Shown: one piece after another, positions 11,190-15,180 of the stretch
Layout of the letters: each line of letters begins with the position of its first letter
Numbering within the stretch: the stretch's first letter is position 1
Assembly: GCF_017355935.1 (NCBI RefSeq)
Contig: NZ_JAFIQT010000002.1
Coordinates: 682,001-746,000, forward strand
Reading direction: 5' to 3'
DNA length: 64,000 nt
Source of the DNA: Telluribacter humicola
GTDB lineage: Bacteria; Bacteroidota; Bacteroidia; Cytophagales; Spirosomataceae
Made by a program: the position numbers and the translations under genes
Notes under the pieces: model-generated
Database searches by the model: none
The model's input: only the letters and a program-made list of their open reading frames with translations
Told to the model about the DNA's origin: nothing

Positions 11190-11309
11190 GAAGATAAAAT
11201 GGTAGAAACGGGTAAAGGCGCAAGATAGTCAAAGTAACAGACTTATAAAGTACCTACTGTACAGAGTACCCGGTATGGACGGAAGGAGCGACAAGGGCTA
11301 CAAAAGAAA

Positions 11310-11339
11310 ACACGCAGGTTTCAAAATGAACCCGCGTGT
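11310..11339 (-). terminator. Intrinsic terminator of the tRNA-like RNA transcript
   Basis: A stem of 10 pairs with one A/C mismatch (ACACGCGGGTT / AACCTGCGTGT read on the minus strand), then TTTTCTTTTG. It lies about 80 nt after the 3' end of the tRNA-like element and about 110 nt before the DUF819 start codon, so it should isolate the RNA gene from the membrane protein gene. A weaker hairpin (GCGAT/ATCGC, 11385-11398) with a T-rich tail lies between them. Confidence 0.75.
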
Positions 11340-11419
11340 CAAATTACACTTCATCAACAAACTAAAAACCAAATAAAACTACTTGCGATAACAATCGCTT
11401 AATAAGTTTTTCTTAGTGC

Positions 11420-11578
11420 TGTAGGAGGGGGATTCGAACCACCCACGGTGCGGTTAGCTGCGGTACAAAAGCTTGGTGGTCAACCCCAGTCGACTTGAGG
11501 CCGGCATTATACCGCGTTTATCCCGGACTCACCACCCCCGAGACAGGAGGGCATGGCTGCCAGTTTCATCATCCTACA
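11420..11578 (-). ncRNA. tRNA-like structured RNA with a giant variable region
   Basis: Read on the minus strand this 159-nt stretch has all tRNA arms in register: a perfect 7-bp acceptor stem (TGTAGGA / TCCTACA), U8, a 3-bp D stem (ATG/CAT) with class II-type loop AAACTGGCAGC, one spacer nucleotide, a 5-bp anticodon stem (CCCTC / GGGGG) with loop CTGTCTC (U33 present; nominal anticodon GUC), and a T arm with loop TTCGAAT and one T-stem mismatch. About 90 nt replace the variable loop and hold further pairings (TGGT/ACCA, GCGGTA/TACCGC, CCTCA/TGGGG). A real tRNA-Asp is class I with a 4-5 nt variable loop, so normal decoding is unlikely. CCA is not encoded. It has its own promoter and terminator. 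It is too short and differently organised to be tmRNA. Confidence 0.72.
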
Positions 11579-11640
11579 ATGTAGTCAAAAAACGTTTCAA
11601 TTCTGACCAGAACCGTTGTTCTTTCGTTGAATTGATGATA

Positions 11641-11672
11641 CAAATGTAAAGCGCTTCTCTGGAATATTAAAA
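11641..11672 (-). promoter_or_regulatory. Bacteroidota-type promoter for the tRNA-like RNA
   Basis: On the minus strand TTTT, a 20-nt spacer, then TACATTTG. The second box matches the -7 consensus TAnnTTTG exactly and the first matches TTTG at three of four positions with ideal spacing. The predicted start lies about 55 nt before the 5' end of the tRNA-like element. The region is shared with the divergent Lrp gene. Confidence 0.5.
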
Positions 11673-11757
11673 TATTTGCAGTAAAATTTCTTAAAATTTA
11701 GATAATTTTTAAAATTTGCGCCACATTGTTAGATGGTATCTAAATCAGGGTCCAAAA

Positions 11758-12231
11758 ATGAACAAAAATTTAGAAATTGACAATACTGACCTCCGAATTC
11801 TGGCCTTACTGATGGAAAACGCAGGATTGCCCTATACCGAAATCGGAAAAAGAGTATTTGTGTCGGGAGGAACGGTACACGTGAGGATGAAGAAAATGGA
11901 ACAGATGGGGATTGTGAAAGGCTCTCAACTGATCATTGATCCCGCCAGGCTGGGCTGGGACATTAATGCCTTTCTGGGTATATACCTGGATAAAAGCTCC
12001 CTGTACGAAGAGGTGGCCGAACAGCTTGAGCGTATTCCTGAAGTCGTCAATATCCATTATACAACTGGTATATACAGCATATTTGCCAAGATCGTATGCC
12101 GCGATACCGAACACCTGCGCGAGGTGCTGCACGATAAGATCCAGCGGGTACAGGGCATCCAGCGCACTGAGACATTCATCTCACTCGAAGAGCGGATCAA
12201 CCGGTCTATCCCGTTGAATGAGGAGCAATAG
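11758..12231 (+). CDS. Lrp/AsnC family transcriptional regulator
   Basis: A 157-aa regulator. Residues 5-60 form an AsnC-type helix-turn-helix (LRILALLMENAGLPYTEIGK, then VSGGTVHVRMKKMEQMGIV) and residues about 70-145 the RAM ligand-binding, oligomerising domain. Members usually sense amino acids and control transport or catabolism. The chosen ATG (MNKNLEIDNTDLRIL) fits the family; a longer open frame begins 14 codons earlier but adds no conserved sequence. It is divergent from the tRNA-like RNA gene and about 75 bp upstream of padR on the same strand. Confidence 0.93.
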   Translation: MNKNLEIDNTDLRILALLMENAGLPYTEIGKRVFVSGGTVHVRMKKMEQMGIVKGSQLIIDPARLGWDINAFLGIYLDKSSLYEEVAEQLERIPEVVNIHYTTGIYSIFAKIVCRDTEHLREVLHDKIQRVQGIQRTETFISLEERINRSIPLNEEQ

Positions 12232-13284: not shown

Positions 13285-13824
13285 ATGTATTGCATTGTGG
13301 ATATTGAAACGACCGGAGGTATTAAAGGCCCTACGCGTATTATTGAGGTAGCTATTTATAAACACGACGGTCAGCAGGTAGTAGACGAATTTCATTCTCT
13401 GGTAAATCCGCTGACAAATATTCCCCCTTTTATTTCTCGCCTTACGGGTATTGAAGACAAGATGGTGCAGGATGCGCCCCTCTTTGCCGAAATAGCTGAC
13501 TCTGTTCGCTCCATTACTAAGGATGCCTGGTTTGTGGCCCACAATGTGCAGTTTGACTATAACTTCATCAAGAAAGAGTTTTTGTGGCTCGACGAGCACT
13601 ACCATCGTGAGCAGCTCTGTACTATTCGGCTGAGTCGCCGCCTACTGCCGGGCTACAAATCGTATAGTCTGGGGAATCTGTGTCAAAGCCTGGATATAGT
13701 ATTGAATGGCCGGCACCGGGCGGCCGGCGATGCGGCCGCTACGGTGACGCTGTTCGAGATGCTGCTTCGGCATGATGACCAGAGTCTGATCCCGAAGAAT
13801 ACCGAGCCGACACTCTTCCAGTAG
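13285..13824 (+). CDS. DEDDh 3'-5' exonuclease (DNA polymerase III epsilon-like)
   Basis: A 179-aa exonuclease domain protein. The DEDDh catalytic set is visible: D6 and E8 in VDIETTG, the second Asp in AHNVQFDYNFI near residue 94, and the His/Asp pair in NGRHRAAGDAAAT near residues 144-149. It is a stand-alone catalytic domain without the UvrC-like GIY-YIG half found in longer Bacteroidota versions, or the tau-binding tail of classical DnaQ. Likely roles are proofreading or single-strand trimming in repair. A strong bidirectional terminator follows. Confidence 0.9.
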   Translation: MYCIVDIETTGGIKGPTRIIEVAIYKHDGQQVVDEFHSLVNPLTNIPPFISRLTGIEDKMVQDAPLFAEIADSVRSITKDAWFVAHNVQFDYNFIKKEFLWLDEHYHREQLCTIRLSRRLLPGYKSYSLGNLCQSLDIVLNGRHRAAGDAAATVTLFEMLLRHDDQSLIPKNTEPTLFQ

Positions 13825-13843
13825 AAACAATTAGTTTTATAAT

Positions 13844-13878
13844 AAAGAAGCCCTCCCCGGTTTGGGGAGGGCTTCTTT
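13844..13878. terminator. Bidirectional terminator between the exonuclease and the adhesin cluster
   Basis: A perfect 15-bp stem (AAAGAAGCCCTCCCC / GGGGAGGGCTTCTTT) with a 5-nt loop, between convergent genes. The terminal A/T pairs supply U-tracts in both directions. Confidence 0.9.
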
Positions 13879-13899
13879 GTATTTGCGGTATTGAAGTAC

Positions 13900-15180
13900 C
13901 TACCTCTTGGCAGCCGTACGTACCCGCTTGATCGTAACCGGTACGCATATCTCGGCCGGACAACAATTTCCTTCCACCACAATGATCGGGCAGCAGGCAC
14001 CGGTAGAACATCCGGCATTGGTCGCGGTAAAGGTATATGTACCCGTAGAAGTTACCTTAAGGGTAGTACTATTGGCACCGGAGATGGAGGTACCATCTTT
14101 GAACCATTGAACATTGGTATAGGTACTGGCAATGCTCAGTTCCACGGCTTGTCCGGCACAAAGCAGGATAGGTGCTCCCGCGCAGGTTTGTCCGTAATCA
14201 TCTTCGTCAGGTATACCATTGTCAGGAGTGGAGTTGATATCTTCCTGATCGGCTTTGGATACCTCCGCCACATAGTACTGTATACCGGTGGCTACCACTT
14301 TGGTAGTAAGTGTCAGTACTACTGATTCACCAACCGCCAGAGAACCGATCGTCCAGATACCATTGGCGTAGCTACCCTGCGTAGAGCTGGAACCAGCTAT
14401 TTCTAATCCCGAAGGCAGAGCGTCTTTTACTTGTACTCCCGTAGCATTATCCGGACCATTGTTCTTTACCACAACCGTAATTTTGACGTTATCACCTACC
14501 TCCGGTAGCTTGTTATCCAGCGAGGTAGTCAGCACCAGGTCAATCTTCTTGGGCGCTTCCTGACATTGGGCCCCTGGACCAAGCATTTGTAAAAACTGCT
14601 CAGTAGGTAATCCGTTACCGCCGGATGACTGCCCAGAGCGGGAGTAGAAACTACATTCCACATTAAGGGAGTAAGCTTTATAAGCAGCTGCAATGAAGGG
14701 ATCACTCTTATCCAGGATTTCAACAGGGCCGGTGCAACCCGTGGTCTGAAATGAAAACAAAGCCACCGGTGTATTGGCCGTAAATTTCCCATAGCTGCTT
14801 TCACCAGGTTCTTTCCCTACGGAGCAGTAGTAGAAGTTCTTGTCGTAGGTATAGTTGGCGAACTTAGGGTGTGTGGCAGGGTTACCCAATATCGTCAGCG
14901 GCTTTCGCCAGCTTCCATGAATGCTGGTCAGGTTCTTCATCACGAAGTCCTTAGGTATTTTCAGTGTAACCTGTGCCGTACTTCCCATTTCGTCCGTGCT
15001 AGGGTTATTGGCATTGGGAGTATTATACATAGGGATTACCCAAACGGTATACGACTGAGTAGCCTGGTCAAAGGTTATCTGATACTTTACCTGATTCGTT
15101 GATAAGTCCTGAGCAAACGAACTGAAAGCCCCCAGTAAGAGAGAGCCGGCAAGTGCCATGATAAGGGTGAATTTTCTCAT
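13900..15180 (-). CDS. Secreted DUF11-domain surface protein (426 aa)
   Basis: Extracellular protein with a signal peptide (MRKFTLIMALAGSLLLGAFSSFAQ). Residues about 28-205 form a module also found in the next protein upstream (KYQITFDQAT, YTVWVIPMY, GSTAQVT, SYGKFTANTPVALFSF, SFYSRSGQSSGGN). Residues about 215-315 are a DUF11-type beta-sandwich (VGDNVKITVVVKNNGPDNATGVQVKDALPSGL). Next comes an Ig/PKD-like segment with paired Cys (QWFKDGTSISG), then a Cys-rich, basic tail (CCPAEICVPVTIKRV). No type IX sorting domain is recognised. It is the last gene of the adhesin block and follows a terminator, so it may have its own promoter. A surface or matrix role is inferred; no enzyme motif is seen. 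Confidence 0.85.
   Translation of the reverse strand: MRKFTLIMALAGSLLLGAFSSFAQDLSTNQVKYQITFDQATQSYTVWVIPMYNTPNANNPSTDEMGSTAQVTLKIPKDFVMKNLTSIHGSWRKPLTILGNPATHPKFANYTYDKNFYYCSVGKEPGESSYGKFTANTPVALFSFQTTGCTGPVEILDKSDPFIAAAYKAYSLNVECSFYSRSGQSSGGNGLPTEQFLQMLGPGAQCQEAPKKIDLVLTTSLDNKLPEVGDNVKITVVVKNNGPDNATGVQVKDALPSGLEIAGSSSTQGSYANGIWTIGSLAVGESVVLTLTTKVVATGIQYYVAEVSKADQEDINSTPDNGIPDEDDYGQTCAGAPILLCAGQAVELSIASTYTNVQWFKDGTSISGANSTTLKVTSTGTYTFTATNAGCSTGACCPIIVVEGNCCPAEICVPVTIKRVRTAAKR

Follow-up and report, generated by a model that had tools for sequence, protein, structure and literature searches.

A window of 64,000 nucleotides of the Telluribacter humicola genome, the whole stretch of DNA analysed here, encodes on its minus strand a tRNA-like RNA of 162 nt, counted to the base after C74 (11417..11578), which was delimited by sequence, conservation and covariation. 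The RNA is a member of a previously undescribed, widespread family absent from Rfam 15. Judged by its sequence, it appears to join the anticodon loop of a tRNA-Asp to the first base pair of a tRNA-Asn on a body unfit for decoding. We propose, with a probability of roughly 0.75, that it is a tRNA dedicated to asparagine synthesis and not to decoding, serving AspRS and GatCAB as the carrier on which asparagine is formed. Co-occurrence with gatB, replacement by a GatB-AspRS fusion and an AsnC-like neighbour all point to this role.

Architecture and covariation of the RNA

All tRNA arms occur in register on the minus strand, as the earlier note had read from the sequence of this window alone. The 7-bp acceptor stem TGTAGGA/TCCTACA pairs 11578-11572 with 11426-11420 and is followed by U8. 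The D arm (ATGAAACTGGCAGCCAT, 11553..11569) is of class II type and resembles that of tRNA-Leu, with a D loop GGCAG that lacks U20a; sequence and covariation support both this arm and the T arm (11427..11444), which has the loop TTCGAAT and one bulged base in its stem. Between them, the alignment of 128 copies defines an anticodon-type arm CCCTC-CTGTCTC-GGGGG (11535..11551) with the loop C32 U33 G34 U35 C36 U37 C38 (11546-11540). The 3' acceptor strand continues into encoded G73 and C74 (11418..11426), as judged from the same alignment and from the tRNAs of the organism's own genome. The remainder of the CCA is not encoded after C74, which is also the case for most tRNA genes of that genome.

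An enlarged variable domain, seen in both sequence and covariation, replaces the variable loop. The earlier note had put its length at about 91 nt and suspected internal pairings; the helices are borne out and the length is 87 nt (11447..11533). The domain comprises a closing helix GGTG/CACC, an inner 3-bp helix, an internal loop GATAAA/CTAA, a distal stem and a GACCAC motif. The internal loop (GAUAAA/CUAA in the RNA) is conserved and the distal part is variable. Across the family the variable region measures about 35-125 nt, except in one 78-nt copy (L150 1337-1414, genome G071) that has no variable domain, has the loop CUAUCUC and comes from a genome without GlnRS. A group I or other intron within a tRNA was rejected as an explanation of the domain, because the insert of about 35-125 nt has covarying helices of its own and is absent from one copy. 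Pairing between the GUC anticodon and the GAC of the GACCAC motif is only suggestive: GUC is found in 66/66 copies with the motif and 56/62 without it (p = 0.011), and is retained in two phage copies whose motif is broken.

Standard tools do not recognise this structure. ARAGORN reported only a tRNA-Ala in the window, and its intron-mode calls of tRNA-Ser/Arg in a few copies are spurious, as they ignore the conserved stem. An Rfam 15 search of the window, with the tRNA and tmRNA models named in the earlier note, returned no match for the tRNA-like RNA even at E = 1; short forms of the RNA were likewise unmatched. A tmRNA or tmRNA replacement was rejected, given the missing match to the tmRNA model and the presence of the genome's own tmRNA elsewhere. 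Energy folding was by itself uninformative (z -0.18) and recovered neither the D arm nor the T arm.

Comparative evidence for the fold is strong. When 128 distinct copies were aligned to the covariance model, a procedure that biases the alignment towards that model, 95.2% of cells were paired and two-sided changes numbered 625 versus 155 +/- 17 in shuffles. Every helix covaries, and compensatory changes, which the earlier note had proposed as a check, affect 23 of the 30 base pairs in the arms and variable domain. An alignment of 25 copies by sequence gave 94.3% paired cells, with two-sided changes in 19/30 pairs and 84 cells (22 in shuffles).

A -7 type promoter box TAnnTTTG (TACATTTG, 11641..11648, minus strand) precedes the RNA. 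The box is present in 62/77 copies, mostly about 70 nt upstream of the RNA, versus 6.6 expected in shuffles. Downstream, the sequence contains an intrinsic terminator hairpin (11309..11340, minus strand). The earlier note had described a promoter and a terminator framing one transcript of about 330 nt. Both elements are there, and between the tRNA-like RNA and the terminator is a separate, invariant 31-nt element on the same strand (TTTGGTTTTTAGTTTGTTGATGAAGTGTAAT, 11343..11373), recognised by its near-invariance across the family. It occurs as a single copy in most genomes of the family, including ones that do not have the tRNA-like RNA, and is probably an independent small RNA. The transcript is probably two units rather than one.

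Identity elements and decoding

Aspartate identity depends strongly on G73, G34, U35, C36 and C38, and amidation by GatCAB is determined by U1-A72 and opposed by G1-C72 and U20a (PMC9976931; PMC6523644). The family carries both sets. U35, C36, C38, G73, C74 and G2:C71 are present in 128/128 copies and G34 in 122/128, the other six having A, C or U. Of these, G2:C71 likewise counts as an AspRS determinant. On the 5' acceptor strand (11572..11578, minus strand), where U1 and G2 are nearly or fully invariant, U1:A72 occurs in 127/128 copies; U20a is absent. These invariant AspRS and GatCAB identity elements contrast with acceptor pairs 3-7, which covary. The same conservation picture emerged from 86 host copies that had not been picked by sequence pattern. 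Further Asp determinants, G10 and G1-C72, are mostly or wholly missing.

The RNA shares with tRNA-Asp the loop CUGUC with C38, G73 and G2:C71, and differs from it by U1-A72, a pyrimidine at 37, the large variable domain and the Leu-like D arm. In the same genome tRNA-Asp has the loop CTGTCAC and G1-C72, and tRNA-Asn has U1-A72. U1-A72 and G73 link the RNA to tRNA-Asn, from which C36, C38 and the variable domain set it apart. It shares covarying cloverleaf arms with canonical tRNAs, but not their variable region of 4-24 nt, their U33 with purine 37 or their recognition by tRNA models.

Position 37 is a pyrimidine (U or C) in 128/128 copies and U33, counted by the earlier note among the canonical features and present in the window copy, is kept in only 102/128; a function in decoding is therefore unlikely. 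The anticodon GUC of most copies would suit a variant of tRNA-Asp that has an unusual variable arm and still decodes, but an ordinary tRNA-Asp is present in the genome and in several of the phages that carry the RNA. Together with pyrimidine 37 and the 26/128 copies that lack U33, this makes such a variant very improbable. The earlier note's suggestion of a non-translating tRNA mimic that serves as a substrate of tRNA enzymes gains support from the invariant AspRS/GatCAB elements, pyrimidine 37, the dispensable U33 and the tRNA-like ends of copies in phage arrays. Its puzzle, a GUC anticodon on a class II body, is in keeping with a role outside decoding.

Distribution, GatCAB and the GatB-AspRS fusion

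T. humicola has a single copy. The BLASTN comparison advised in the earlier note matched 72/99 relatives, so the RNA is conserved beyond this strain; identity within the taxonomic family is 72-97% along the whole length. True members score at least 84 bits with the covariance model and ordinary class II tRNAs in the genomes at most 62 bits, the sole intermediate score (70.7 bits) being that of the 78-nt copy in G071. The model found members in several families within the order and the class, and also in a single family belonging to a different class of the phylum. A conserved 29-nt pattern matched bacterial genomes in at least 119 stretches; the matches listed are Bacteroidota such as Dyadobacter, Spirosoma, Algoriphagus, Cyclobacterium, Flammeovirga and Saprospiraceae. 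Tandem copies, up to six, also exist. No description of the RNA was found in the literature outside subscription journals.

In the window's class the RNA co-occurs with GatCAB, whose presence was scored by gatB alone. Of 98 genomes sampled there, in counts that ignore phylogeny, 38 have RNA and gatB, 57 have neither, 3 have gatB only and none has the RNA only. Thus gatB accompanies the RNA in 38/38 genomes, and the RNA is absent from 57/57 genomes without gatB. Both states occur within each of the families f23 and f24, indicating that RNA and gatB changed in step more than once. AsnRS was found in 40/40 genomes tested and GlnRS in 25/28 tested RNA-bearing gatB genomes (missing in G071, G088 and G367), so that GatCAB should be mostly dispensable for translation in RNA-bearing genomes. 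GatCAB of the RNA-less genomes G061, G062, G066 and G139 is explained by their want of GlnRS, which leaves it needed for Gln-tRNA. G010 and G039 have GlnRS and gatB and no RNA was found in them, possibly owing to assembly gaps. In gatB-bearing genomes outside the window's class the RNA is mostly absent. Where GatCAB is retained alongside AsnRS and GlnRS, a function in making asparagine has been suggested for it, and 18 genera, some of them Bacteroidetes, lack AsnA and AsnB (PMC4206432).

Six genomes of the window's family without the RNA have gatA in an operon with a GatB::AspRS fusion of about 1100 aa (for example L406 2657-5959, L408 3027-6347 and L409 5453-8767). This divergent, AspRS-fused gatB is their only one, and a stand-alone AspRS is also present. 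In five of the six genomes the fusion is on the same stretch as the 31-nt element, and in 4/6 it ends about 100-150 nt before it; about 4.4 kb of other genes intervene in G034, and in G015 the two are on different contigs. No description of the fusion appeared in the literature searched. Separately, the RNA-less genomes G249 and G295, of another family, have a divergent gatB that scores like the fusions of L406-L411.

In their anticodon-binding domain the fusions read RDHG, versus RDKG, RNKG, RDMG or RNAG in 15 stand-alone AspRS. We take histidine at this position to mark the non-discriminating AspRS of Pseudomonas; therefore, the fusion probably uses tRNA-Asn directly, and by the same motif the stand-alone AspRS looks discriminating. 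That exactly AspRS and GatB are fused, and at the same locus, would also be expected if the RNA merely joined AspRS and GatCAB in a transamidosome, with ordinary tRNA-Asn as the molecule amidated and the fusion replacing the bridge in the RNA-less clade; the large variable domain could serve such an assembly. We consider a scaffold of this kind unlikely, since the stand-alone AspRS lacks the RDHG of all fusions and hence probably does not charge tRNA-Asn, the acceptor-end U1-A72 (127/128), G73 and C74 are invariant though a scaffold would not need them, and a 78-nt copy without variable domain exists. A carrier that is itself charged and amidated remains our preferred reading.

Phage carriage, the AsnC-like neighbour and the proposed role

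The 29-nt pattern also matched 81 stretches in viral contigs, and the covariance model found the RNA in all 80 viral loci searched, two of them truncated by a contig end. Terminase, portal, PhoH-like and thymidylate synthase genes are present on these contigs. Many phage copies sit inside dense tRNA arrays with spacers of 3-4 nt, and spacers this short support the assigned ends of the RNA. Of the 80 viral stretches, 12 contain a tmRNA as well, 9 contain a tRNA-Asp distinct from the RNA, and 30 are free of other tRNAs. A 636-kb phage record gave one weaker match. Viral copies also vary in structure: L287, L290, L318, L340, L361 and others have hairpin insertions in the D loop, and L285, L295, L316, L334 and others have differing palindromes (TGCA, GGCC, CATG, AGCT, GCGCGC, GTGCAC) at one position after GACCAC in the variable domain, a recurrence in sequence that suggests a hairpin or RNA dimerisation.

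Divergent from the RNA lies a gene for an AsnC-like regulator (11716..12231, plus strand, start codon uncertain), assigned by profile models and neighbourhood. It belongs to the Lrp family, and in the seven proteins tested AsnC outscored every other NCBIfam model by about 90 bits, with scores below its curated cut-off. Among 191 loci examined it was divergent from the RNA in 104/104 where it was detected; the remaining neighbours (RluD-type, acyl-CoA ligase, SufB) are lineage-specific. Farther along the window, weak Thr_leader matches on both strands (13778-13919) are probably a G+C-rich bidirectional terminator.

A divergent regulator and a standalone RNA gene flanked by a promoter and a terminator of its own would also befit an RNA that, charged or uncharged, reports aspartate/asparagine status or titrates AspRS, and so controls the AsnC-like gene or others without being an intermediate of biosynthesis itself. 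Carriage by phages, including the 30/80 stretches with no other tRNA, and tandem copies suit an abundant working RNA instead, and retention of the RNA follows gatB; a regulator is accordingly a distinctly remote prospect. The arrangement resembles asnC-asnA of E. coli, where AsnC is likewise divergent from an asparagine-making gene, except that its partner here is an RNA and not asparagine synthetase A.

In the proposed pathway of asparagine synthesis, the RNA would be transcribed divergently from the AsnC-like gene, trimmed like a tRNA and completed with CCA. Ordinary AspRS is predicted to charge it with aspartate through the tRNA-Asp set G34 U35 C36 C38 G73, and GatCAB to amidate the bound Asp to Asn through the tRNA-Asn-type U1-A72, in place of which true tRNA-Asp has G1-C72. 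Pyrimidine 37, the dispensable U33 and the large variable domain would keep Asn off Asp codons, and Asn would then be freed or passed on. The outcome would be that reached elsewhere by a non-discriminating AspRS and GatCAB on tRNA-Asn, with no need of such an AspRS. We also lean, if only slightly, towards a broader view of the RNA as a dedicated cofactor of amino-acid biosynthesis: controlled by AsnC, it would take the place of asparagine synthetase and be interchangeable with the GatB-AspRS fusion, and phages would carry it as an auxiliary RNA gene to raise asparagine supply, a benefit that we infer.

The pathway of Deinococcus, Thermus and Bdellovibrio likewise employs AspRS and GatCAB to convert Asp to Asn while RNA-bound, with U1-A72 as amidation determinant and GatCAB kept despite AsnRS and GlnRS (PMC4206432). 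Its carrier is a decoding tRNA-Asn and it requires a relaxed AspRS, whereas the family described here would provide a separate, non-decoding carrier with an Asp anticodon loop. Like tmRNA, the RNA is tRNA-like and carried by some phages, but it retains an anticodon arm and does not match the tmRNA model. Other tRNAs have non-translational roles, among them tRNA-Gly of Staphylococcus, used for the cell wall, and tRNA-Other of Bacillus cereus. These too are tRNA genes for a non-ribosomal role, and differ in amino acid, pathway and architecture.

If the proposal is correct, a cell can carry out tRNA-dependent amino-acid synthesis with a carrier kept wholly out of decoding; an accurate AspRS is then enough, and mistranslation does not arise. 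The proposal would also account for the retention of GatCAB by some bacteria that have both AsnRS and GlnRS, a question raised previously (PMC4206432). The new RNA family has members in phages, and in one clade a protein replaces it at its locus.
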